Part shown: positions 2,200 through 16,516 of the stretch, in pieces | How positions within the stretch are numbered: position 1 is the first letter of the stretch | Layout: each line of letters opens with the position of its first letter | Assembly: GCA_024278345.1 (NCBI GenBank) | Contig: JAJRTK010000322.1 | Coordinates: 1 to 17,175, forward strand | Length of the DNA stretch: 17,175 nt | Reading direction: 5' to 3' | DNA from: a bacterium | Lineage (GTDB): Bacteria > CSSED10-310 > JAJRTK01 | Translations under genes and position numbers: made by a program | Notes under the pieces: generated by a model | Database searches by the model: none | Told to the model about the DNA's origin: nothing | The model's input: the letters and a program-made list of their open reading frames with translations, nothing else

Positions 2200-3600
2200 A
2201 TGGCGCACCGATTTCCAATCAATGTGCTCTTGGTGGACGACGATCGGCAGGTGTTGAGTTCGATTTCGTCGGCTTTGGCGACTCGTGGTCTGACGAGTGA
2301 AGTTGCGGCATCGGGGGAGGAAGCTCTGGAGAAGCTGGGGGAACATGTTTTCGAGATGATGCTTGCGGACGTGTCGATGCCGGGGATGAGTGGGATCGAG
2401 CTTCTGGAGAGGGCGCGTCGGCAGTGGCCGGGGATGGCTGTTGTGATGCTGTCGGCGCATCAGTCGGTGCCCACGGTTGTGGAGGCTCTCAAGAAGGGTG
2501 CCATCGATTACTTGGTGAAGCCGTTCCGGCTGGAAGAGTTGCTCGTTCGGACGGAGAATGTGCTTCGGCATCGGCGTTTGGAGCAGGAGGTGGAAGAGCT
2601 CCGGGCGAAGATGCAGGAGTCCGAGGAGCGGCCCAAGAGGCTCATCGGGCAAAGCAAGTCTCTTCTGGCGGTATTGGAGCAGATCTCCATGGTTGCCCGA
2701 AATGACGTAGCGGTAGTGATTTATGGTGAAAGTGGAACGGGCAAGGAGTTGGTGGCGAGAGAGATCCACGATCAGAGTCCTCGGCGAGAGAAGCGGTTCG
2801 TGGTGGTGAACTGTGGTGCGCTGAGCGAAGAGTTGCTTCGGGATGAGCTCTTTGGTCACGAGGCGGGAGCTTTTACGGGGGCTCAGGCGCAGAAGAAAGG
2901 CCTTTTTGAGGTGGCGGATGGGGGGACGGTTTTCCTGGACGAGATTGGGGAGGTTTCCCACGGCGTCCAGGTGCAACTTTTGCGGGTGCTCCAGTCCCAC
3001 GAGTTCACTCGGTTGGGTGGGACTTCGACGATTCACGCCAATGTTCGGGTGATCTCGGCGACGAATCGGGATCTGGCGGAGGAGGTTCGAAACGGTCGTT
3101 TCCGGGAGGATCTCTACTACCGGATCAACGTGGTGCCGATCCAGGTGCCGCCGCTACGGGAACGGCGGGACGACATCCCGTTATTGGTGAACCACTTTAC
3201 GCACAAGTTCAAGGCGAGGCTTGACGTGCAGCCCGAGGGGTTCACACCCGAAGCGGTGGAAGCTCTGATGAGGCTCGATTGGGTGGGCAATGTGCGGGAA
3301 CTGGAAAACAGCATCAAGCGGCTGTTGGTGATGCGGAATGATCGTTGGATCGACCCGGCGGCACTCCAGTCCATCACTGGGCTGACGGAGCCGCGGGAAC
3401 CGGTGGGAAGCCTGCCGTACCGGGAGCAAAAGCGGAGGGTTCTTGAAGGTTTTGATCGAGAGTACCTGCGGAACTTGCTGACGCGGTGTGGCGGCAACGT
3501 GAGCAGGGCAGCCCAGGCTGCGGAGATTGATCGCAAGAGCCTGTGGCGGAAGCTCAAGCAGTATGGCCTCAACGCGGGGCAGTATCGAAGCCAGCTTTGA
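2200..3600 (+). CDS. NtrC-family sigma-54-dependent response regulator
   Basis: A 466-aa cytoplasmic transcription activator with the full NtrC layout. The receiver domain (about 7-120) has acidic pocket D13-D15, phospho-acceptor D57 in LADVSMPG and K107 in VKPF. A coiled linker follows (about 122-145). The AAA+ domain (about 148-375) has Walker A GESGTGKE (176-183), the sigma-54-contacting GAFTGA loop (223-228), Walker B GTVFLDE (242-248) and an intact arginine-finger region (FREDLYYRINV). The C-terminal Fis-type helix-turn-helix (about 428-458) contains GNVSRAAQAAEIDRKSLWRKLKQYGL. The start is ATG 2200 after GAGAGGGG. No histidine kinase is nearby; the kinase gene starts 61 bp downstream, suggesting co-transcription and possible Ser/Thr input. 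It is the natural activator for the sigma-54 site at 7837. Confidence 0.97.
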   Translation: MAHRFPINVLLVDDDRQVLSSISSALATRGLTSEVAASGEEALEKLGEHVFEMMLADVSMPGMSGIELLERARRQWPGMAVVMLSAHQSVPTVVEALKKGAIDYLVKPFRLEELLVRTENVLRHRRLEQEVEELRAKMQESEERPKRLIGQSKSLLAVLEQISMVARNDVAVVIYGESGTGKELVAREIHDQSPRREKRFVVVNCGALSEELLRDELFGHEAGAFTGAQAQKKGLFEVADGGTVFLDEIGEVSHGVQVQLLRVLQSHEFTRLGGTSTIHANVRVISATNRDLAEEVRNGRFREDLYYRINVVPIQVPPLRERRDDIPLLVNHFTHKFKARLDVQPEGFTPEAVEALMRLDWVGNVRELENSIKRLLVMRNDRWIDPAALQSITGLTEPREPVGSLPYREQKRRVLEGFDREYLRNLLTRCGGNVSRAAQAAEIDRKSLWRKLKQYGLNAGQYRSQL

Positions 3601-3661: not shown

Positions 3662-6600
3662 ATGTTCCAATCGCTACAGATCGGGCCTTATCGTCTTTCC
3701 GGCCTTTTGGGCCGGGGAGGCATGGGCGTGGTCTATCGCGGGGAGCATCGGGAGACCGGCAAGGTCGTGGCGCTCAAGACGGTTCGCGTTTTGCACGAGA
3801 CGATGTTACAGGGCCTTCGCCGGGAAATCCACGCACTGGCACGGGTCTCGCACCCGGGCATCGTTCGCATTTTGGAGGAAGGTGTCCACGAAGGTGCGCC
3901 CTGGTATGCCATGGAGCTGGTGGAGGGGATCGATCTCAAGAGGTACTACGCCCGGTTGGTGGGGCAGCCTCTGGGGAAGGCCACCGCGATGGAGTCGAGT
4001 TCTTCGACTCGCCAGAAGACCCAGTCGATCCGGCTGGACGAGACGTGGAGCGATCTGCCGGTCCATGAAGACGGTTTTGAAGAAGATGAGGCATCTGGTT
4101 CCGCGGCGTCTGAAAAGAGCGATAGCAGCGAGCTGACGAGCCTCTACACCTCTTCTGAACCCTTGAAACTGGACAGGTCCGGGCCGGTGGACACGGGGGC
4201 CTCGAAGATTGAGGCGAAGAGGCAAGAGGCGCGTCAGGAGCCACAACCGAGCCTCCTGCTCGGCAACCCCGAGGCGGCGCGGGCGATCCTGACGGTCATT
4301 CGGAGGCTGTGCGCGACCTTGGCCTACCTCCATGGAGAAGGGATCGTCCACCGGGATATCAAGCCCAGTAATATCCTGGTGCGAAGCTACGGGACGCCTG
4401 TTCTTGTGGATTTTGGGCTCATGTCGCATTTTCGGGGGAAGCAGAACCGCGAAGAGCTGGACCTTGGGCGAGGACCCGCGGGGACAGTCATTTACATGGC
4501 TCCGGAAGCGATTTTGAACCGCTCTTTCGACGCTCGGATCGATCTCTATGCCCTGGGCTGCATTCTTTACGAGTTGATCACGGGCCGGCCGCCGTTCGTC
4601 GGCAAAACCCCCAAGGATATTGTGCTGGGGCATCTGTACATCGAGCCCCTTGCGCCATCTCAGATCGTGAAGCCGCTCCCTTCGGAGCTTGACGATCTCT
4701 TGCTTTCCTTGCTTGCGAAGCGGCCCAGGGATCGCCTGGGCCATGCCGGACGGATCGATTCGGTCCTTGCCCGGATGGGGGCGGATCCTCCATCTCCAGA
4801 GGCGATACGGCCACCTCGAGCCTACCTTTACCGGCCGGAGATCGTTGGACGGCGGCAAGCTCTCGCAGTGCTCAACGGACTTTTGACCAAGATCCATACG
4901 TGGGGGGGGCAGTTTTTGCTCGTCAGCGGAGAAACGGGAATCGGTAAGACCCGTTTGGTTCAGGAGTTTGCCCGGAAAACCTCCACGGATGGGCTGCCGA
5001 CTTTCGTCGGCGAGTGCGCGCCTCCAGAGGCCCGTGCGTCGGAGGAAAAAATCGGGGGCACTCCCCTTTACCCACTCCGCCAGTTGCTCCAAGCCGTCGC
5101 CGACCGCTGCCGCGAGCACGGAGTTGAGGAGACGGAGCGGCTTTTGGGAGATCGCGGGCCTCTGCTTGCCCACTACGAGCCGGCATTGACTGGCCTTTCG
5201 TATTTAGATCCCCGCCCCGAGCCGGCGTCACTACCTCCCGGCGCGGCACGGCTCCGCCTGTTCGGTTATTTGATTGATCTCTTGGGAGCCCTTGCGGCGG
5301 AAAGGCCCGTGGTTCTGGCCATCGACGACCTTCACTGGGCCGACGAGCTCACCAGTGGTTTTCTGGAGTTTTTGGTGAAGAGCGGACGGCTCTCGAAAGT
5401 TCCGCTTCTTATCGTGGCAAGCTACCGTTCTGAAGAAAGAACTCCCGCCATTGAGCTCCTCCGCGGGCAGCGCACAGTCAAGGTTCTGGAATTGGGCCGT
5501 CTGGACGAAATCGGAGTGGGCGCCATGGTGGGAGACATGCTCGCCATGTCACCACCTCCCAAGCAGTTCGTCCGATTTCTTTCCCGTCAATCAGAGGGAA
5601 ATCCATTCTTCATCGCCGAATATCTTCAGACAGCGGTGTCCACTGGCTTGCTTTACAGAGACGAACTTGGCCATTGGCAGGTGAAGGAAGAGACGGAAGA
5701 TCCCAAGACCCTGGAGGCCATTTACGAGGCGCTTCCACTTCCAAGATCATTGCGCAAGCTTGTGGAAAGGCGCCTGGACATCGTATATCCCGCCGCGCGG
5801 ACTCTTCTTGAATGCGCTTCGATCCTGGGCCGCGAGTTTCCCCAGGATCTGCTGATGGAGGTTTCGGGGCTGGATGAAGAGGTTGTACTGGGTTTGATCG
5901 AAGATCTGCGAACGCGGGCGGTCTTTGAGGAGCAGCGGATGGGCTCCCTTAGCTTCGTCCACAACAGGCTCCGAGAAGCCGCCTATGACAGGGTGGGAAC
6001 CAGGCGCCGACGGGAACTCCACCGCCGGACGGCGGTAGCATTGGAACATCGGGGTCCCGCGAGTGAAGATGAGCGGTTGGCGAAGATCGGGCTCCACTGG
6101 CAAAGGGCTGGAGAAGAAGCCAAGGCCCGGCGTTGCTACTTGAAAGCCGCGAAGATTACCGTGGCTCACTACGCTCACAAGGCGGCCGAGGGCCTTTACC
6201 GTGCCTATCTGAGCATCACACGAGAGCCCACAACCGAAAGCGTCCTGGCTAGAAACGAGCTGGCCAACAGCGTCCTGGGAATCCAAGGCCGAAACGCCGA
6301 AGCCATCGAAGAGCTGACCAAAGCGTTGGCGGAAGCCGAGGAGATTGGGGATTCCGAGGCGCTGAAACAAACACTCCAAAATCTTGCCTTCTGCCACCGG
6401 ACAACCGGCGACTACGAACAGTCAAGGGGATTCATCAACAGGGCACTTTCGGTGGCACACCTCCGCGCCGACCGCCGCTTCGAAGGCGCCTGCATCCACC
6501 ACCAGGGAACTCTGGCATGGCTCCAGGGGGAGAACGAGGAAGCGGGACGGCTCTATCGGAGGGCCTTGGAGATCCTGCGAGAGGCAGGGGACCGCCAGGG

Positions 6601-7582
6601 AGAGGGCATGTGTCTCAGCAACCTGACCATCGTTCACTGGACGCGGGGCAACCTCGACGACGCTCGCAGGGTCGCCGAAGAAGCTCTTCACCTCAATCGG
6701 ACGATGAAAGACAGACGCCTGGAAGGGGCGACCCTCAGTCATCTGGCAGCCATCCACTGGAGCCAAGGACGCCTTGAGCTGGCGCAACAGATCTCGGAAG
6801 AGGCACTGGCCATCCAGCGCAAGATCGGCTTCCGCACCGGGGAAGGAGAGGCCCTGACCAATCTTGCGGAGATCCTCCGAGGTCGGGGCCACTTGGACGA
6901 TGCGAGAAAAATCGACGAAGAGGCCCTGTCCATCCACCGCGAAGTGGGAAACCGTCGAGCCGAAGGCGTGACCTTGGGAAACCTCGCGAGCTTCCACCAC
7001 CAGCGCGGAAAGCTCGACGCAGCTCTCAATCTGTACCAGCAATCTTTGCTCATCCATCGGGAAATCGGCGATCAACGATACGAAGCATCGGCCCTGAGCC
7101 ACCTTGGAAGCCTGGAGCGCGATCGGGGACGGCTCGATTCCGCCAGGCACCTTTTGAATGAAGCGTTGAGGCTCCACGGCAATGCCACCGATCAGTTGGA
7201 CACCGCCTTTACCTTTTGGAACATGGCGGTGTTGGAACGTTGGAGCGGCGGCCCGCTCCACCGGGTACTCCAGCTCGTGGAGCAGGCGGAGGCGATCTTG
7301 CGCCGGTCGAGCTCCTTCATGCTGGCGCTCTGTCTTTGTGAACGAGGCCATGTCGTCCTCGCGCGGGGGCACAGCGGCCGCAAGCGCCTGGAAGAGGCCC
7401 AGTCCTTCGCCGGGAAATCGAACATCCATCCCGACAGTATGGCAGGCCGGGCGATCCAGAGGCTTCAGCGGGCAGTAGAAGAGTTCGAGGCAGGCGGCAA
7501 GCTTCATCAGGGCGAAGCGGTTTCAGAGCTGCCCCCGACTCTTTACCAGACCTTGGTCAACTCGGGGATTCTCCGTCGCTAG
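3662..7582 (+). CDS. Ser/Thr protein kinase with AAA-type ATPase and TPR repeats
   Basis: A 1306-aa signalling protein, start ATG 3662 after GAGGAAG; a longer in-frame start would overlap the regulator gene. The Hanks-type kinase domain (about 10-365) has glycine loop GRGGMGVVY (17-25), catalytic K39, E55, HRDIKPSN with D232, DFG at 250-252 and APE at 280-282, so it should be active. Between the hinge (MELVEG) and helix E lies an unusual insert of about 105 residues (100-205), rich in Ser, Glu and Asp. Next is an AAA_16-type ATPase with Walker A GETGIGKT (423-430) and Walker B IDDLHWADE (554-562). About nine TPR-like units with a 40-residue period (about 864-1216) follow. No transmembrane segment is evident. 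The architecture matches PknK/MalT-like sensor kinases. It is probably in an operon with the regulator; its substrate is unknown. Confidence 0.95.
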   Translation: MFQSLQIGPYRLSGLLGRGGMGVVYRGEHRETGKVVALKTVRVLHETMLQGLRREIHALARVSHPGIVRILEEGVHEGAPWYAMELVEGIDLKRYYARLVGQPLGKATAMESSSSTRQKTQSIRLDETWSDLPVHEDGFEEDEASGSAASEKSDSSELTSLYTSSEPLKLDRSGPVDTGASKIEAKRQEARQEPQPSLLLGNPEAARAILTVIRRLCATLAYLHGEGIVHRDIKPSNILVRSYGTPVLVDFGLMSHFRGKQNREELDLGRGPAGTVIYMAPEAILNRSFDARIDLYALGCILYELITGRPPFVGKTPKDIVLGHLYIEPLAPSQIVKPLPSELDDLLLSLLAKRPRDRLGHAGRIDSVLARMGADPPSPEAIRPPRAYLYRPEIVGRRQALAVLNGLLTKIHTWGGQFLLVSGETGIGKTRLVQEFARKTSTDGLPTFVGECAPPEARASEEKIGGTPLYPLRQLLQAVADRCREHGVEETERLLGDRGPLLAHYEPALTGLSYLDPRPEPASLPPGAARLRLFGYLIDLLGALAAERPVVLAIDDLHWADELTSGFLEFLVKSGRLSKVPLLIVASYRSEERTPAIELLRGQRTVKVLELGRLDEIGVGAMVGDMLAMSPPPKQFVRFLSRQSEGNPFFIAEYLQTAVSTGLLYRDELGHWQVKEETEDPKTLEAIYEALPLPRSLRKLVERRLDIVYPAARTLLECASILGREFPQDLLMEVSGLDEEVVLGLIEDLRTRAVFEEQRMGSLSFVHNRLREAAYDRVGTRRRRELHRRTAVALEHRGPASEDERLAKIGLHWQRAGEEAKARRCYLKAAKITVAHYAHKAAEGLYRAYLSITREPTTESVLARNELANSVLGIQGRNAEAIEELTKALAEAEEIGDSEALKQTLQNLAFCHRTTGDYEQSRGFINRALSVAHLRADRRFEGACIHHQGTLAWLQGENEEAGRLYRRALEILREAGDRQGEGMCLSNLTIVHWTRGNLDDARRVAEEALHLNRTMKDRRLEGATLSHLAAIHWSQGRLELAQQISEEALAIQRKIGFRTGEGEALTNLAEILRGRGHLDDARKIDEEALSIHREVGNRRAEGVTLGNLASFHHQRGKLDAALNLYQQSLLIHREIGDQRYEASALSHLGSLERDRGRLDSARHLLNEALRLHGNATDQLDTAFTFWNMAVLERWSGGPLHRVLQLVEQAEAILRRSSSFMLALCLCERGHVVLARGHSGRKRLEEAQSFAGKSNIHPDSMAGRAIQRLQRAVEEFEAGGKLHQGEAVSELPPTLYQTLVNSGILRR

Positions 7583-7595
7583 TTGTGCGCCTGCG

Positions 7596-7646
7596 GCAAT
7601 CGTGGAGTGCCCGTCGCGCGACGGGGCACACACGCCCCACGATTGC
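7596..7646 (+). terminator. Nested hairpin after the kinase gene
   Basis: A perfect 10-bp outer stem, GCAATCGTGG (7596-7605) with CCACGATTGC (7637-7646), encloses a second stem, GTGCCCGTCG (7607-7616) with CGACGGGGCAC (7619-7629), one base bulged. It begins 14 bp after the kinase stop codon. No T-run follows, so it may be a rho-dependent or structure-stabilised end. It separates the kinase transcript from the independently promoted protease gene. Confidence 0.5.
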
Positions 7647-7836
7647 GGCATAAAAGCCCCACGCGGTTTCGTCGTTTTTCTGCAATTATTGGCAGATTCG
7701 CCGGTGAGCGTAGGGCATTTTTGCCCCAGCCAAGGAATTTCTTTCTAAATTCACAGAGATGAGTGGCGTCGAGATAATCTTCGATTCTCCGTGAGTTATG
7801 TGGATCATGGGCCACGCCGCCACCATTCCCAAAAAG

Positions 7837-7852
7837 TGGTCTGGATCTTGCT
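7837..7852 (+). promoter_or_regulatory. Sigma-54 (-24/-12) promoter of the repeat protease
   Basis: TGGTCTGGATCTTGCT matches the RpoN consensus TGGCACG-N4-TTGCW at TGG, at the G of position 7 and at all of TTGCT, with the invariant 10-bp GG-to-GC spacing. The expected transcription start is near 7863, about 40 nt before the protease ATG at 7903. Its placement between the NtrC-type activator block and an exported protease makes functional linkage likely. Confidence 0.65.
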
Positions 7853-7902
7853 AGCACTATTTATGCAAATCTGATTCAACCTGATGTTTATTGGAGAAAC
7901 CC

Positions 7903-10900
7903 ATGAATATGCCATGGTGGACCAGGAGTGGGCGGCGGGCGCGGGTAGAGTCCGGTTTGCCTCTCAAGCGGTTGGGTCTGGCGGTGAGCATGGTTCTGGG
8001 CGCTTTTGCGCTGGCGTTGGTTCCGGCCAACGGAGAAACCACGAGTTTCAGAGGGGAACAGGTCTCATCCCAAGAGGGAAAAAAATTAGAGTTCCTGGTT
8101 CGTTTGAACAGGGGGGCCGCGCAGGAAGTCGAGCAGTTCTTGGCGGATCACGATTTTGAGGAAGTGCCGGGAACTCCCAGGCTTCGGAAACGCGGGTGGA
8201 TCCGAATTCGCAAAGTGGAGAGTCGAGCTGCCGAGCTGGTGATGCTAGAGCTGAAGCGGGATCCGAGAGTGCGGAACGTGGTGGTGGATGCGGAGTTGGA
8301 AGCGAGTGGCGAGATCGACTTGAGCGATCCGTTCGCCAATCGACAGTGGAACCTTGAGGCAGTGGGATTCAAGAAGCTTTTGAAGAAGCAGGCAGTTGGA
8401 TCTGGGACGGTTGTGGCGCTGCTCGACACGGGGCTAACCCCAGGCCCCGATCTGCTGGATCTGTCGGTGTTACCGGGTTACGACGCGCTGAACGGCGACG
8501 ATGACGCATCAGATGATCATCAGCATGGCACGTTGATGGCGTCGATCCTCGCGTCAGCGGTGGACAATGGCGTTGCCGTCGCCGGTCTCGCGTCAGGGGT
8601 CACGGTCCTGCCGGTGAAGGTCTTGGATTCGGAGGCGAACGGGCGAACTTCCGCACTGGTTGAGGGCCTCTATTTCGCGGCGGAGCAAGGAGCCCAGGTG
8701 GTCAACATGTCGCTGGCTTACCCGCCGGGCTTCTATCCCGGAATCGTTCTGGACGAGGCTTTGGAGGAACTTAGCGGCCTGGGCATCTTGCTGGTGGCCG
8801 CGACGGGAAATTGGGGCTCTGGAGTGGTTTCCTATCCCGCGGCCTATCCGGCGGTGATCGCGGTGGCAGCCAGTGCTCCCCGAGGCAGCGAAGATTCGGA
8901 TGGCGAAGAGTGTCGTGATGATGACGGGGACGACGATGACGGGGACGACGATGACGGGGACGACGGCGAACATTGCGAAGATCATGGTGAAGATGGAATT
9001 GGCGGGAGTATCGAGGTCGCCAGCTACTCGAGCTTCGGGACGGCGCTGGACATCGTAGCTCCTGGAGGCGCCACGGAAGACGTGGATGGCGACGGACACG
9101 TGGACGGCATCCTGGGCGAGACCTTCAATTCTCAGTCTCCTCAAGATTACAGTGTTTGGGTCGTCGCCGGGACTTCCGGCGCCACGGTACATGTCACAGC
9201 GGCTTGCGCGGTGCTCCTCGGGGCGGGAGCCAACCCAAATGACGTCCGCTGGCTACTGGAATCCTCGGCCAAGGATGCTGGACCCGAAGGGTTCGACGTA
9301 GAAACGGGCACCGGCCATCTTCGGATCGACAAAGCCCTGAAAAAGTTTGAAAAAGGAAAGAGTCAAGCAGGAGAGCGCCCAACGAGTTCGGTAGAGCTTT
9401 TGGAAGAAACCTTGGGCGATGGCACCTGGCTCCGTGCCAAAGCCAGCCTCACCGTCACCAATGGCGACGGACACCCGGTAAAAGGAGCCTTGATCTACGG
9501 CCATTTTGCCGGAGCCGCCATGAGCAGCCATGCCGCCAAGACCGGCGATGATGGCCATGCGACGGTGAAATCCCTCCCCTATCCTGCGTCATTGCGAGCG
9601 GAGAATGACCTTCTTTTCGTGGTGGATCGGGTACTCGCCGATTGCCATGGAAACCCAATCGATCACGCCAATGATCTACGGCGGTGGATTGAGCAAGCTT
9701 ATGAGCGATGGCGCCTGCATTACCGGGAGGATTTCCTCCAGCTTATCGAGGACGCCCTGGCAGCCAGGGAAGAACAACTCCAGCAGTTGCTCGCTTGGCA
9801 GGAAGAGTTCCAGGCCCCGCTTCCCGAAGAGCTTCAGTATCTAGACGATCTGGCGGACCCCCTGTCCACGGATTGGCTTTCCACTGCTCCGGGGCAGCTC
9901 TGGCTCACCAGAAGCAATGGTCAGGACTGGCTCTTCACGCCAGCGGGCCAAGATTGGCTGCTTTCGCCGTCCAGCCAGGACTGGCTTTTCACTCCGGCGG
10001 GCCAAGTCTGGATCTTTTTGCCGGCGGGCCAAGACTGGCTCTTCACGCCGGCGGGCCAAGACTGGCTTATTTCTCCGTCCAGCCAGGACTGGCTCTTCAC
10101 ACCAGCTGGCCAGGACTGGCTCTTCACACCAGCTGGCCAGGATTGGCTTTTCACGCCAGCGGGTCAGGACTGGCTTCTCTCCCCCTCCAGCCAAGACTGG
10201 CTCTTCACGCCGGCCGGCCAGTATCTCACGTCTCGGCCCACGGCTCACGACTGGCTATTGACCCCGTCTGGCCAAGACTGGCTCTTCACGCCGGCGGGAC
10301 AAGATTGGCTTCTCTCCCCCTCGGGCCAGGACTGGCTTTTCACGCCAGCAGGCCAGGACTGGCTCCTCTCTCCCTCCAGCCAGGATTGGCTCCTCTCCCC
10401 TTCGGGTCAGGATTGGCTCCTCTCCCCCTCGGGCCAGGACTGGCTGCTTACCCCTGCCGGTCAGGACTGGCTCCTCTCTCCCTCCAGCCAGGACTGGCTC
10501 CTCTCCCCTTCGGGCCAGGACTGGCTTCTCTCCCCCGCGGGACAATTCTGGACAGTCACCACAACCGGTCAAGATTGGCTGCTATCCCCTGCTGGCCAAG
10601 ATTGGCTCCTGTCCCCTCTAAGTCAGGACTGGCTGCTTACCCCTGCGGGTCAGGACTGGCTGCTTACCCCTGCCGGACAGGATTGGTTGCTGTCTCCCGC
10701 GGGTCAAGACTGGCTCCTCACGCCCGGCGGGCAATTGTGGGCGTTGGATCCAGTTCGCCAGGATTGGCTGCTCTCCCCTAGCGGCCAAGACTGGCTCCTC
10801 TCTCCCGCGGGACAGGACTGGCTCCTGTCTCCCGCGGGACAGGGGTGGTCTGTATCCCCTCTGGTTGAGGACTGGTTGCTGCCCCTTGCCGGGGAAGCCT

Positions 10901-11058
10901 GGCTTGCGGCAGACCAGGGAATGGACTGGCTACTCAGCCCGGCTGGCCAGTCCTGGCTCGGCACCGGACCAGGACTGCTTTGGAGCCAAAGCCAAGCGGG
11001 CACCGACCTCCTGACGACACCGGGAACGGCAAGCATCGTCTTGTCGCAAGCCTGGTGA
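7903..11058 (+). CDS. Secreted subtilisin-like (S8) protease with 43 C-terminal nonapeptide repeats
   Basis: A 1051-aa exported protein. ATG 7903 follows GGAGAAA; the upstream in-frame TTG lies inside that site. Residues 1-45 form a Sec signal: a long basic start, then a hydrophobic core (LGLAVSMVLGAFALALV) and a cleavage-like ANGE. A propeptide-like region (about 60-135) precedes the S8 catalytic domain (about 165-485) with D175 (DTG), H208 (HGT), oxyanion N303 (GNWG) and nucleophile S425 (GTSGATVHV, where the family usually has M and P at two positions). An Asp/Gly insert sits at about 331-366. Residues 495-580 look like an Ig-like domain (VTNGDGHPVKGA), followed by a helical linker. Residues 655-1041 are 43 tandem 9-residue units, consensus GQDWLLSPA/GQDWLFTPA, then TASIVLSQAW. 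I know no characterised family with this repeat; surface attachment, a beta-solenoid or peptide release are possibilities. Confidence 0.93.
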   Translation: MNMPWWTRSGRRARVESGLPLKRLGLAVSMVLGAFALALVPANGETTSFRGEQVSSQEGKKLEFLVRLNRGAAQEVEQFLADHDFEEVPGTPRLRKRGWIRIRKVESRAAELVMLELKRDPRVRNVVVDAELEASGEIDLSDPFANRQWNLEAVGFKKLLKKQAVGSGTVVALLDTGLTPGPDLLDLSVLPGYDALNGDDDASDDHQHGTLMASILASAVDNGVAVAGLASGVTVLPVKVLDSEANGRTSALVEGLYFAAEQGAQVVNMSLAYPPGFYPGIVLDEALEELSGLGILLVAATGNWGSGVVSYPAAYPAVIAVAASAPRGSEDSDGEECRDDDGDDDDGDDDDGDDGEHCEDHGEDGIGGSIEVASYSSFGTALDIVAPGGATEDVDGDGHVDGILGETFNSQSPQDYSVWVVAGTSGATVHVTAACAVLLGAGANPNDVRWLLESSAKDAGPEGFDVETGTGHLRIDKALKKFEKGKSQAGERPTSSVELLEETLGDGTWLRAKASLTVTNGDGHPVKGALIYGHFAGAAMSSHAAKTGDDGHATVKSLPYPASLRAENDLLFVVDRVLADCHGNPIDHANDLRRWIEQAYERWRLHYREDFLQLIEDALAAREEQLQQLLAWQEEFQAPLPEELQYLDDLADPLSTDWLSTAPGQLWLTRSNGQDWLFTPAGQDWLLSPSSQDWLFTPAGQVWIFLPAGQDWLFTPAGQDWLISPSSQDWLFTPAGQDWLFTPAGQDWLFTPAGQDWLLSPSSQDWLFTPAGQYLTSRPTAHDWLLTPSGQDWLFTPAGQDWLLSPSGQDWLFTPAGQDWLLSPSSQDWLLSPSGQDWLLSPSGQDWLLTPAGQDWLLSPSSQDWLLSPSGQDWLLSPAGQFWTVTTTGQDWLLSPAGQDWLLSPLSQDWLLTPAGQDWLLTPAGQDWLLSPAGQDWLLTPGGQLWALDPVRQDWLLSPSGQDWLLSPAGQDWLLSPAGQGWSVSPLVEDWLLPLAGEAWLAADQGMDWLLSPAGQSWLGTGPGLLWSQSQAGTDLLTTPGTASIVLSQAW
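8920..8964 (+). repeat. Three tandem 15-bp units encoding an acidic loop
   Basis: The unit GATGACGGGGACGAC is repeated three times without change (8920-8934, 8935-8949, 8950-8964). It encodes an Asp/Gly run inside the protease domain between the oxyanion Asn and the catalytic Ser. Perfect identity points to recent slippage expansion. The acidic loop could bind calcium, and its cysteines (CRDD, HCED) could form a disulfide. Confidence 0.85.
9865..11025 (+). repeat. 43 tandem 27-bp repeats encoding nonapeptides
   Basis: The units are exactly 27 bp, so frame is kept through the array. About 30 carry QDWL. Units in the first half tend to be LFTPA and those in the second half LLSPS or LLSPA. Degenerate units lacking the Asp (for example GQVWIFLPA, GQFWTVTTT, GQLWALDPV) are scattered and become frequent in the last seven. 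The pattern suggests internal duplication with decay towards the C-terminus. Because 27 is a multiple of three, other frames also stay open here and give misleading long ORFs. Confidence 0.95.
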
Positions 11059-12910: not shown

Positions 12911-13300
12911 CTACGGCTCCCGCTTGGCAAGGGCTTGACCCACATACTCGGTCAGCTTCGGATCAAAGCTATAGCCACGGTGAGCGACAAACTCAGGTTC
13001 TTCCCGGTACATGCGCCGAAGGGATGCCGTGATCCCTGGGTCACCGCCGGTAAACTCCTCCACGAGCCCCTTCCAACGCAAAGCCAACGCCCACACCTTC
13101 TCACTGGCCGGATCCGAACCCTTCTCCATCTCCGCCCTGACCTCCGCGATGAGCTTCGGCCACACCCGTTGAGCCTGTTCGATCTTCTCCTGACCAAGAA
13201 GCTCACCTCGCTTCGCCAAAGCCTCCAACTGCTCTTGTGTGTAGTACTTTTCCATGTTTCGCGTCTCCTGCATCAACCGGAGGAAATCCTCCGTGCTCAC
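12911..13300 (-). pseudogene. TipAS effector domain, 3' fragment of a broken MerR/TipA regulator
   Basis: 129 codons from a possible GTG at 13300, or an internal ATG at 13255 giving MEKYYTQEQ. The sequence is typical of TipAS drug-recognition domains attached to MerR-type regulators: EVSTEDFLRLMQE, MEKYYTQEQLEALAKR, WPKLIAEVRAEMEKGSDPAS, FTGGDPGITASLRRMY. It is out of frame with the DNA-binding part that precedes it. In intact relatives about 50 residues of helix and dimerising coiled coil lie between the two parts; here the junction is immediate, indicating an internal deletion plus frame change. Streptomyces tipA makes a free TipAS from an internal start, so translation of this domain alone cannot be excluded. 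Confidence 0.75.
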
Positions 13301-13314
13301 CTCTCCCCCATCTC

Positions 13315-13506
13315 TCAGGGAACCCCAAACCCCAACGCCCGAAAAGAGAGGATCTGCTGCAATCGGACAATCTCCTCCCGCCCATACAGCCGATACCCGC
13401 ACTCCGTCCGCGCACGCGGGCAAAGCAGCCCGATCTCGTCGTAGTAGCGCAACGTCCGAACCGTGACGCCCACGCGCCTGGCCAGCTCGCCAATCTTCAG
13501 AACCAT
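13315..13506 (-). pseudogene. MerR-type DNA-binding domain, 5' fragment of the TipA-like regulator
   Basis: 63 codons from ATG 13506. It begins with the standard MerR winged helix: KIGELARRVGVTVRTLRYYDEIGLL, then a GYRLYGREEIVRLQQILSFRALGF segment, ending in GVP and a stop where relatives continue with the SLEEI helix and coiled coil. Without the dimerisation helix it should not bind its operator as a normal dimer. The ORF remains open far upstream of 13506, but that extension covers the operator/promoter and is not part of the family. With the TipAS fragment the locus spans 12911-13506 on one strand. Confidence 0.85.
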
Positions 13507-13555
13507 CTGACACTCTCCATCGACTCTGGCCAAGACTTTCCCGGCCCCAATGGGA

Positions 13556-13586
13556 TCCATAATCCCTGACGTAACGTGAGGGTCAA
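13556..13586 (-). promoter_or_regulatory. MerR-type operator and promoter of the TipA-like gene
   Basis: On the minus strand a -35 TTGACC (13581-13586) and a -10-like TATGGA (13556-13561) are separated by 19 bp, the over-long spacer typical of MerR-regulated promoters. Between them sits the dyad CCCTCACG-TTA-CGTCAGGG (13564-13582), arms matching at 7 of 8 positions. This is the expected autoregulatory arrangement, about 43 nt before the start codon from the predicted +1, and it looks intact although the gene is broken. Confidence 0.75.
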
Positions 13587-13672
13587 GAGGTCGGGGAAGG
13601 TAAATTGACTTTTTTCGGTACGCGGCTCCAAGGGCACGTTCACGATCTGCCACCACTTCTTCCAATAATCTC

Positions 13673-14119
13673 TCAGTCCGCCCGGCAAATGGGATCGCCC
13701 ACGCGAATCTCACCACCCCGCGCCACCTCGCCATAAACGCCACCTGCCCAATCCCCGGACAAGGCCTTCCGCAAGCCGGGAAAAACGGCATCCATCACGT
13801 AGCAAGGCGTTGATTCCCCAAGAACCCGGAGCTGACAAGAGCCGATCTTCAGGACGCAACCGCGGCTCCCGGCCAAAGAGAATCCGCGAATCAGCAAATT
13901 GGCCCGGCGTTTCACGGGATCGAGCTCCACGTCAAGGCGCTGGCACGCATCCCGCCAAAGCTCAGCCTCCAGGAGCGTCACCTGCCGCTTCCCCCCTTGC
14001 TCCACATTGCCGGCGATACCGCCACCCTCCACGAAAATGACCGAATCCCGCGCCTCCATGGGTTCCCGGTGCTCCCGCTTGATCCAAATCGCTTCGACTC
14101 GCCCCACTTGCTTCTCCAT
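13673..14119 (-). CDS. MOSC-domain protein
   Basis: A 148-aa stand-alone MOSC domain, related to the C-terminal domain of molybdenum cofactor sulfurase and to YiiM/YuaD-type proteins that handle molybdopterin-linked chemistry. Visible features: VEAIWIKREHREPM at the start, RRANLLIRG (71-79), the conserved cysteine C106 in GESTPC, and the closing GGVYGEVARGGEIRVGDPI. ATG 14119 has GAGGGAG 4 nt upstream; the frame runs further upstream but through a REP element, so the longer start is rejected. It lies 104 bp after the DprA/AbiGi-like gene and 166 bp before the broken regulator, all on the minus strand. Its substrate is unknown. Confidence 0.88.
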   Translation of the reverse strand: MEKQVGRVEAIWIKREHREPMEARDSVIFVEGGGIAGNVEQGGKRQVTLLEAELWRDACQRLDVELDPVKRRANLLIRGFSLAGSRGCVLKIGSCQLRVLGESTPCYVMDAVFPGLRKALSGDWAGGVYGEVARGGEIRVGDPICRAD

Positions 14120-14223: not shown

Positions 14224-16002
14224 TTACGGCAGACGTTCCGCCGAGTTCTTCCAACCGCTCTCCAGAAGCACCGGAAGACCTTTTCCAAGCAGATGAACCC
14301 GGGCAGCCGCCGCCCTGGAAGGAACAATAGCCAGGAGATCTTCCGGTCTGGCGTCGGAAAAATCAAGGTCACCGTGACAACGCCATTCGCCTTCCCGGAT
14401 CCGGTCGCACCGGGGCGGCTCGTACCGCTGGAAACGAAACCGCTGCTCCAAGGAAAGCTCCCCGTAGGCGGATCGGGGCAGGTGGAGAACCGGCAAAAAC
14501 CCCTTCCTTCGGGCATAATCCTTCCGAAACCCCACGGCATAAGGCAGAAAGTTCCGGCGGCAAAGACTCCGATCCCAGGCGGCAATGCCCCGGATCTCCC
14601 ATGGAGGCCGATCAGAAAAACAACAGACGCGGTGCTTCCCCCGAATCATCTTGGAGCTGGCCCGGATCCGCTCCTCGCCCAGGATGCGCAAAAGGGTGTC
14701 CAACGCCGTGTGGGCCGAGGAAGGATCGCCGGTCACCAGGGCTTCCAGGTATTCGCCGACGGATTCTCCGGGCCAGGGGCCAAAATGCTCCCTGGTGTAG
14801 TGGTAGATGTAATCCGCGGGACGCGGGCCGGGAAGCGCGGCGGGACCGGCAGCATGGCCTTGGTCATCGTTGGTGCCTTCGGCAGCTCTCGCTGTCGCTC
14901 GGACCCGGCCACCCTGCAGAATCTCAGGCGCCGCCCCGGGGCCTCCGGCCCTGGAACCCGGCGAAGGCTCCGCCTTCGGACCTCCACCGGAAGAAGGCTC
15001 CAAGCGCGCGGGGGCAACCGGGAGCGCCCCACGGGGAGCAAGCTCCTCCGCGCCCCGGATTTCGACGGCCAGATCGAGTTCCACGGGTGTCCATTCAAGG
15101 GGGGACAGCTTTGCGGTCGTCCGGGGACTCTGACTGCGGTGCTGGCCTTCGGCCATGTTCTCCGCTTCACTCCGGCTCGCTCCTGCTCGCCGGGCGGTCG
15201 GCCGGGGACTCTGTCCCCGGTCCCCTGACAGGGCTTTGCCCTGCACCCACCAGGGAGCTCGCTGCGGACCCGTTGCAATTGGAAGGCAACGAGTTCCCCA
15301 CCCACGTGGTTGGGCGCTTCGCGCCTGTTCTTTTCTTTCTATACTGTCCCGCTTGAAATGGATACCTAGCTCCACCGGGCCCTGGCGGAGAAGTGCCCGG
15401 TTTCCCGCCGTGGCGGCGCCGCCGCGATCCGGACAGCAGACCACGCGCCGGCCCTCCCGGAGCCTTCTTTCCAGGAGTCCGAACCAGACGCCGCCGGCCC
15501 GGATCTCAACGCCACACACGAGATCCGCCAGACCGTCCACCACCCGGTCCCGTTCCCGCATCCGGGCGGCGCGGGATGCCCTTTTCGTGGTGGAAACCCG
15601 TCCATCCCCTTCTCCCCGCGCTTCCGGAGCAATGAGAAGGGTCTTCCCGAAGTCCAAGAATGCCCCATAATCCCGATGCCAAGCGGCCCGTTTCGCCTCT
15701 GAAAAATCCTCGGGCAGCCGTTCCATAACCAGGATCAGGGGCCGGCCTTCCCGGATCGCCACCCAGGCGGGAAGCTCGTAGATCAGGGATCCCAGGCTGG
15801 AGACCAAGACGCCAGAAGAGAACTCCTCGCAGTCAAGCGCCGCCAGAGTCGAGCGGAGCCAGCGGCTAGAAGGGCCAACGCGCCGGGCCTTCCGGGAGTT
15901 CACCACGGCGTGGGTCGCCCCTGCCAAGATCTCCAGCGGCCCGCACCAGCGAATACGGACGCCCAGGGATTCCCGGATCCCGTGAATGCGCTCGTTTTCC
16001 AA
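14224..16002 (-). CDS. DprA/Smf-like domain fused to AbiGi-like domain, interrupted by a MITE
   Basis: A 592-codon ORF starting at TTG 16002 with GGGAGG nine bases upstream. Residues about 25-212 resemble the Rossmann-like DprA/Smf domain of the SLOG superfamily: HAVVNSRKARR, GVLVSSLGSLIYELP, RERDRVVDGLADLVCGVEI (cf. RRNRIIAGLSD.VVVVE in DprA), EGRRVVCCP and GNRALLRQGPVEL. Residues 213-309 are encoded by the inserted repeat. A Pro/Gly-rich linker leads to a C-terminal domain (about 396-580) like the abortive-infection protein AbiGi: YIYHYT (398-403), ILGEERIRAS, VCCFSD (459-464), YAVGFRKDYARRKGFLPVLH (488-507) and EWRCHGDLDF (539-548). In AbiG the AbiGi protein is one of two components; here it is joined to a putative nucleotide-sensing domain. 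The insert preserves the frame, but whether the protein still works is unknown. Confidence 0.65.
   Translation of the reverse strand: MENERIHGIRESLGVRIRWCGPLEILAGATHAVVNSRKARRVGPSSRWLRSTLAALDCEEFSSGVLVSSLGSLIYELPAWVAIREGRPLILVMERLPEDFSEAKRAAWHRDYGAFLDFGKTLLIAPEARGEGDGRVSTTKRASRAARMRERDRVVDGLADLVCGVEIRAGGVWFGLLERRLREGRRVVCCPDRGGAATAGNRALLRQGPVELGIHFKRDSIERKEQARSAQPRGWGTRCLPIATGPQRAPWWVQGKALSGDRGQSPRPTARRAGASRSEAENMAEGQHRSQSPRTTAKLSPLEWTPVELDLAVEIRGAEELAPRGALPVAPARLEPSSGGGPKAEPSPGSRAGGPGAAPEILQGGRVRATARAAEGTNDDQGHAAGPAALPGPRPADYIYHYTREHFGPWPGESVGEYLEALVTGDPSSAHTALDTLLRILGEERIRASSKMIRGKHRVCCFSDRPPWEIRGIAAWDRSLCRRNFLPYAVGFRKDYARRKGFLPVLHLPRSAYGELSLEQRFRFQRYEPPRCDRIREGEWRCHGDLDFSDARPEDLLAIVPSRAAAARVHLLGKGLPVLLESGWKNSAERLP
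15086..15366 (+). mobile_element. MITE-like repeat, copy 2, inside the DprA/AbiGi-like gene
   Basis: Bounded by inverted ends of 23 bp: left 15086-15108 (GGTGTCCATTC...GGGGACAG) and right 15344-15366 (CTGTCCCGC...ATGGATACC). The interior has the family hairpins CCGGGGAC-TCT-GTCCCCGG (15202-15220) and CAGGGC-TTT-GCCCTG (about 15229-15243). The imperfect 12-bp flanks 15076-15087 and 15367-15378 match at 9 of 12 positions and both encode PVEL on the minus strand, so they look like a decayed target duplication. No coding capacity for a transposase. Confidence 0.65.
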
Positions 16003-16150: not shown

Positions 16151-16516
16151 GAGTATCCACGCAAAGCGGGACACTCCGGGAATTGGGAATCGCGAGCGGC
16201 AGGGGGCGCCTCACTCCGCTCGGCGGGTCACGTTTGCGTGACTCGAAGGGTCACGTTTGCGTGACTCGAAGGGTCACGTTTGCGTGACTCGAAGGGTCAC
16301 GTTTGCGTGACTCGAAGGGTCACGCTGCGCGTTACCCGGCGGTCGTCCGGGGATTCCATCCCCCATCCCCTGGCAGGGCTTCGCCATGCACCCACCAGGG
16401 AGTTACCTCCCTGGACCCACGTTTTTGTACGCTCCGCGTCTTTTCTTGGTTTTGTTGCGTGTCCCGGCTTAGGTGGATACCCTGTTTCCTTGCTTGTCCC
16501 GCTTTGCGTGGATACC
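16151..16516 (+). mobile_element. MITE-like repeat, copy 3, with doubled right end
   Basis: The left inverted end is at 16152-16174 (AGTATCCACGC...GCGGGACAC). Two right ends follow in the same orientation at 16459-16481 and 16494-16516, 35 bp apart; the outer one matches the left end best. CTGGA lies at 16146-16150 and again at 16517-16521, fitting a 5-bp target duplication around the outer end. The interior contains the hairpin tandem array and the core shared with copies 1 and 2, including CCAGGGAG-TTAC-CTCCCTGG. Subterminal repeats are known at the ends of some IS families (IS21 for example), but the family is not identified. Confidence 0.6.
16225..16325 (+). repeat. Tandem array of four 23-bp hairpin units
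   Basis: Four identical 23-bp units start at 16225, 16248, 16271 and 16294, followed by a 9-bp partial unit. Each contains GTCACG-TTTG-CGTGAC, a perfect 6-bp stem with a 4-nt loop, then TCGAAGG. It lies inside MITE copy 3 and is absent from copies 1 and 2. Perfect identity suggests recent expansion. It is not a CRISPR: there are no variable spacers. Confidence 0.9.

Follow-up and report, generated by a model that had tools for sequence, protein, structure and literature searches.

A subtilase with a conserved C-terminal nonapeptide array and a candidate sigma-54 activator encoded nearby

The subtilase gene and its domain order

The window, which is the whole 17,175-nucleotide stretch of bacterial DNA that was analysed, contains at 7903-11058 a single intact open reading frame on the plus strand, with a GGAG sequence at 7892-7895 preceding its ATG at 7903. 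It encodes a subtilase of 1051 residues, which ends in a tail of nonapeptide units. The assignment of its parts was as follows:

7903..11058, plus strand: subtilase with nonapeptide tail, 1051 aa (ORF, Pfam, repeat count)
7903..8037, plus strand: probable Sec signal peptide, residues ~1-45 (basic n-region, LGLAVSMVLGAFALALV, PANG)
8074..8316, plus strand: propeptide, residues 58-138 (structural alignment of the model to prodomains)
8398..9315, plus strand: S8 catalytic domain, residues 166-471 (Pfam, subtilase structures, ortholog alignment)
9370..9642, plus strand: beta-sandwich domain, residues 490-580 (AlphaFold2 model, VIA-align)
9655..9864, plus strand: helical connector, residues 585-654 (AlphaFold2 model; largely missing in the relative described below)
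9865..11025, plus strand: 43 nonapeptide units, consensus GQDWL[LF][ST]P[AS], residues 655-1041 (repeat count)
11026..11055, plus strand: final 10 residues beyond the array

The protease itself is an S8 enzyme, as judged from its sequence. The Pfam Peptidase_S8 profile (PF00082) matched residues 166-471 with an E-value of 5.6e-33 and 114.9 bits (cut-off 21.8), and it was covered completely, from 1 to 288 of its 288 positions. In alignments with solved subtilases the residues Asp175, His208 and Ser425, together with the oxyanion residue Asn303, matched the catalytic and oxyanion positions, and all four were also retained in the ortholog from genome G003, which agrees with the complete S8 catalytic set that an earlier note had read from the DNA. 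The same note described the protein as a secreted subtilase, and this description is supported by the PF00082 match and by the probable signal peptide, which was assigned by eye from the sequence. The predicted propeptide aligned with the prodomain of PC1/3 (Z 8.6, rmsd 4.0, 76 aligned residues) and with prosubtilisin (Z 7.1) in VIA-align comparisons, which in the model gives residues 58-138 the I9-like character of Peptidase S8 propeptides. Residues 490-580 were similar to macroglobulin and Ig-like domains (VIA-align Z ~7). The motif around the catalytic serine is GTSGAT/GTSGAA in place of GTSMA, which makes the protease activity uncertain.

The ortholog is encoded on contig C68 of G003 (JACPHN010000023.1, from a MAG deposited under Candidatus Schekmanbacteria), which belongs to another family of the same little-known phylum. 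The catalytic parts of the two proteins are 56% identical, the identity over the alignment is 50%, and the domain order is the same. A 15-bp exact tandem repeat at 8920-8965 of the window encodes DDGDD runs in the catalytic domain, and the acidic insert with these runs (residues ~338-370) is missing in the relative. The genome of the window (G000) contains several more subtilase-like genes, none of them with the tail.

Several other features of the window were noted. On the minus strand, at 12914-13791, Pfam detected MerR and TipAS domains in two overlapping frames, as if one TipAL-like gene had been split by a frameshift. A 592-aa frame at 14224-16002 on the same strand had no Pfam or NCBIfam match, and is perhaps a chance product of high-GC DNA. 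At 16225-16324 the 23-bp unit GGGTCACGTTTGCGTGACTCGAA is repeated 4.3 times with 100% identity.

A candidate regulator and conserved upstream sites

The region upstream of the subtilase gene contains the following features:

2200..3600, plus strand: NtrC-type response regulator, the proposed regulator
3662..7582, plus strand: Ser/Thr kinase with AAA and TPR (Pfam)
7622..7639, no strand: inverted repeat 1, CGGGGCACACACGCCCCA, putative activator site, 12/14 matches to TGGGGCA-N4-TGCCCCA
7644..7661, no strand: inverted repeat 2, TGCGGCATAAAAGCCCCA, putative activator site, 12/14
7711..7728, no strand: inverted repeat 3, TAGGGCATTTTTGCCCCA, putative activator site, 13/14, the highest score in the 17 kb window
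7837..7852, plus strand: sigma-54-like promoter TGGTCTGGATCTTGCT (GG-N8-TTGCW)

The gene at 2200-3600 encodes a receiver, a sigma-54 AAA+ domain (Sigma54_activat) with the GAFTGA motif and a Fis-type HTH, which are the elements that define an NtrC-type activator. Its single outstanding match in the phylum was located at 26385-27755 of the same G003 contig that carries the subtilase ortholog (527 bits, 56%), while the other matches did not exceed 376 bits. Both regulators have GAFTGA and near-identical recognition helices, and the distance from the regulator to the subtilase is 4.3 kb in the window and 3.3 kb in the relative. The Ser/Thr kinase gene, which starts 61 bp past the regulator, was rejected as a conserved partner, because its 27-38% identity, in pieces, to the kinase of the relative's locus is at paralog level.

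Upstream of both subtilases there are TGGGGCA-N4-TGCCCCA inverted repeats, three in the window and two in the relative. These repeats score highest in each 17-18 kb locus, with one equal-scoring site of other spacing in the locus of the relative. As the motif was derived by visual inspection of the two upstream regions together, its enrichment there is partly built in; the stronger points are the position and the uniqueness of the cluster, as a genome-wide search of both genomes found no second close cluster of these repeats. With up to two mismatches 28 sites were found in the 6.06 Mb genome of the window (control 15), and 21 in the 9.2 Mb genome of the relative (control 22). A wider regulon was considered and rejected, as the sites elsewhere are isolated, and their number is close to that of the control for the relative and roughly double the control for the window's genome. 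Each genome has one other site with a single mismatch: in the window's genome it falls within an oxidoreductase-like gene, and in the relative it belongs to a contig region that also contains an Rhs-like repeat gene.

The sigma-54-like site is located 65 nt before the ATG in the window and 55 nt before the start codon in the relative, and its distance to the nearest inverted repeat is 110 bp and 125 bp, respectively. A GG-N8-TTGCW site arises in 1.9% of shuffles of the window region and 1.5% of those of the relative, and rpoN is present in both genomes. Because in both genomes the protease gene is located near a one-to-one orthologous activator gene, behind a sigma-54-like promoter and inverted repeats, it appears that the protease is controlled by a regulator of its own, as far as orthology and regulation can be read from two genomes. 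The linkage and the conservation of the sites suggest that the regulator could bind the TGGGGCA-N4-TGCCCCA repeats. With a host or a heterologous system available, the conserved regulator and sites would make the biological role of the tail testable.

Composition, history and distribution of the nonapeptide array

The array consists of 43 units of nine residues (387 residues, 655-1041) with zero indels. The residues counted at the first five unit positions (n=43) were Gly in 33, Gln in 36, Asp in 34, Trp in 41 and Leu in 37 units, and those at positions six to nine were Leu/Phe in 33, Ser/Thr in 37, Pro in 36 and Ala/Ser in 32. Hence, the description of the units as exact holds for their period, but not for their letters, as 41 window units comprise 23 different peptides, encoded by 40 different DNA sequences. 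Of the Q-D-W-L that the earlier note called near-invariant, the aspartate is not a defining residue, because the relative has alanine in its place. The tail of the relative contains ~33 units with the consensus GQAWLSSPA, which can be aligned to the window tail; its spacing includes two 14-residue units (9 plus 5) and one 10-residue unit. Among 31 of its units Ala occupies the Asp position in 22 and Asp in none, Trp is present in 29 and Gly in 27, and the overall Trp content of both tails is 10-11%.

The synonymous and nonsynonymous differences between the units were compared. The units used for these values were picked by consensus in both arrays, which lowers pN somewhat: for 29 QDWL units of the window pS was 0.735 and pN 0.108, and for 20 units of the relative, all 20 of which differ in DNA, pS was 0.679 and pN 0.095. 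For all 41 window units pN/pS was 0.34. At positions with the same residue the codon identity was 0.381 in the window, versus 0.367 (sd 0.007) after codon shuffling among units, and 0.363 in the relative, versus 0.354 (sd 0.008). Thus, the synonymous sites between units are randomised almost to saturation in both arrays, while the amino acids are retained. The near-shuffled codons and the low pN indicate that there was no recent slippage and that replacement changes were purged. A DNA pattern of three units matched the window 10 times but none of 200 shuffled versions, and the array is neither a chance product nor a slippage product. The two arrays probably expanded separately, because their consensus sequences differ (Asp versus Ala, Leu/Phe versus Ser), and we infer that both then probably persisted long after the expansion. 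Such arrays would show how a repeat can be old at the DNA level and near-uniform at the protein level.

The tail was missing from the other six of eight genomes of the phylum that were examined (E <= 0.001), and a profile of both arrays had no further match in 386 genomes. When the genomes of 84,980 bacterial and archaeal species were scanned with the three-unit DNA pattern, this array was found elsewhere only in G003, and a looser WLxSPxG array was found in one Endomicrobiia genome. The three matches of this pattern on viral contigs, and most of those in genomes, were short frames or unrelated low-complexity repeats. Matches on Borrelia and Salmonella plasmids were on the strand opposite to annotated genes and were rejected as chance, and phage matches to the relative's tail were of low identity, with collagen-like or lectin annotation. 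Pfam, NCBIfam and PDB contained no true-member match to the tail, as the Pfam matches were driven by composition and no stretch passed alone, and the repeat sequence was not found in the literature searched. The view that the repeat belongs to no described family is thus upheld for these databases and for the bacterial and archaeal genomes searched, and the rarity of the array holds for the bacteria, archaea, plasmids and phages searched. Arrays similar to W-L-[AT]-[ST]-P-x-G-Q may occur in fungal proteins.

Two adjoining Endomicrobiia proteins (locus L038, 818-2584 and 3373-4305) have W-L-[RK]-S-x-D-G-x-x repeats of 9-10 residues, and one of them carries a C-terminal DnaJ domain. They bear a suggestive resemblance to the tail and may be homologous to it. 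One WLNSPQGQSWAL stretch was found in the mitoribosomal protein mS60 (PDB 7aor chain an, E 0.04), and its solved conformation could reveal the behaviour of the unit.

Because the relative keeps such a tail and the units have long been under selection, the tail looks like a genuine, undescribed protein module. The alternative named in the earlier note, a disordered tail without conservation in relatives, fails on conservation. A natural nine-residue unit in more than 40 copies, selected and conserved across families of one phylum, would be a ready-made minimal block for designed rods.

Predicted fold and role of the tail, and comparison with known systems

In the full-length AlphaFold2 model, each unit formed a seven-residue helix followed by a two-residue break. 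This block, with pLDDT 70-88 across most of 660-940, was the best part of the model, which was built from two sequences only; the catalytic domain was poorly modelled because the alignment had only two rows. The helices start at the Pro following Ser/Thr, and Ser/Thr before a helix start is a classical N-cap. In the relative, units with substitutions (TEDG, TDEG, SEAG and TADG) fit a [ST]-[PEA]-[AED] helix-cap pattern, and the Gly-free units AAREWLL and HFAMAWL, as well as the 14-residue variants PAGQAWQLAAWLAT and PAGQAWMWSAWLAT, look helical. On the other hand, a conserved Gly within a helix is unusual, and S-P-A-G is also compatible with a beta-turn. The high and regularly spaced Trp and Leu suggest a packed core. 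A helical solenoid is tentatively favoured over a beta fold. A Foldseek search with the full model gave no matches at E <= 0.001, although a missing structural match is not evidence for a new fold.

The explanation which accounts best for the data, and to which we give about even credence, is that of an exported subtilase with a rigid repeat rod and dedicated NtrC-type regulation. The exported enzyme would mature by self-removal of its propeptide, and its C-terminal units would fold into a regular rigid rod or superhelix. The unit would most likely be a two-turn helix ([ST]-P-A-G-Q-D-W-L) with an N-cap Ser/Thr, and successive helices could stack as a solenoid with Trp and Leu inside the core. 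The rod may tie the protease to its target, or space it from the target, which could be the own cell surface, matrix or an insoluble substrate. Expression would be switched by the NtrC-type activator, which would bind the upstream inverted repeats and drive the sigma-54 promoter. The most likely role of the tail would be that of a rigid stalk or binding platform of the secreted protease. With somewhat less than even confidence, the tail may represent a new structural repeat class: a solenoid of single two-turn helices at a nine-residue period, which acts outside the cell as a modular stalk or binding surface on a protease controlled by a sigma-54 activator of its own.

Doubtful, in our assessment, is a calcium-free beta-solenoid or beta-roll, in which each nonapeptide would contribute a WLL or WLS strand and an S-P-A-G turn, and the flat outer faces, lined with ladders of Trp, could attach to a polysaccharide or mineral surface. 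S/T-P-x-G is a frequent type I turn, and the period of nine is that of the RTX beta-roll. Gly is retained in 33/43 window and 27/31 relative units, designed beta-rolls with stacked pairs of Trp have been made (PMC2174480), and AlphaFold2 placed strands at a nine-residue period when 12 units were modelled alone. However, this model had pLDDT 40 and pTM 0.25, the full-length model was helical at far higher pLDDT, and the relative has 5-residue insertions and Gly-free units. The beta-solenoid of the earlier note is therefore not the best model. An unfolded tail that serves as a flexible spacer of low complexity is improbable. The composition of the tail is indeed of low complexity (Leu, Ser, Trp, Gln, Pro, Gly) and the isolated 12 units were modelled poorly, but Trp is kept in 41/43 and 29/31 units, the unit residues are under purifying selection, and spacer sequences usually diverge. 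The repetition and the protease within one chain would fit a polyprotein precursor from which the protease releases many copies of one peptide, as also considered in the earlier note. This is very improbable, because there is no spacer and no recurring cleavage motif, Lys/Arg occur only 3 times in 387 residues, nine of nine positions are constrained without a separate linker, and the relative shows 5- and 10-residue spacings.

The suggestion that the tail is a divergent RTX calcium-binding array is hardly credible, even though phmmer matched it to CyaA and RTX lipase chains and tblastn to calcium-binding proteins. These weak matches arise because G-x-D-x-L recurs at a nine-residue period, and they almost disappear with the units of the relative; by simple counting, G-x-D-x-L arises in ~1/28 random cyclic orders of these nine residues. 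RTX arrays (PF00353, HemolysinCabind) thus have in common with the tail the period of nine and, in the window copy, the G-x-D-x-L spacing. The tail differs in that Ser/Thr (37/43) and Pro (36/43) replace Gly1-Gly2 of the GGxGxDxUx consensus with its Gly1, Gly2 and Gly4, Asp is not conserved in the ortholog, PF00353 scored 13.8 bits against a cut-off of 23, and the N-terminal signal is, by eye, of the Sec type. Asp is required for calcium binding in RTX, while in the relative this position is Ala (22/31; Asp 0/31). Hence, the earlier statement that the array has the RTX period and yet is not RTX was confirmed.

The protease resembles Peptidase S8 enzymes (thermitase/AK.1-like) in its predicted signal peptide and propeptide, the Asp-His-Ser triad, the oxyanion Asn and the full-profile Pfam match, while it differs in the motif of the catalytic Ser, where GTSGA replaces GTSMA, and by the acidic insert. 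None of the S8 enzymes found in this search has been described with a nonapeptide tail. The regulator has the same receiver, GAFTGA AAA+ and Fis-type HTH as other NtrC-type sigma-54 activators, with candidate sites 110-215 bp upstream of the sigma-54-like promoter. It differs in seeming devoted to one protease gene, and in the adjoining gene, which encodes a Ser/Thr kinase; a separate gene for a histidine kinase was not seen next to the regulator in the window. The Endomicrobiia WLxSxDGxx proteins are like the tail in their ~nine-residue units with W-L-x-S and Gly, and unlike the window protein in their variable spacing, their charge and the lack of a protease. Finally, the predicted curved stack of helices is similar to HEAT/ARM alpha-solenoids. 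VIA-align of the tail gave generic matches, with HEAT-like chains such as PP2A B56 (Z 7.9) and MO25 (Z 7.5) in the chance range for helical repeats, and Pfam gave no match of the tail to the named alpha-solenoid families (HEAT, ARM, TPR etc.). In those families a unit spans ~30-42 residues and comprises two or three helices (PMC11514114), while the predicted tail has one helix per nine residues.
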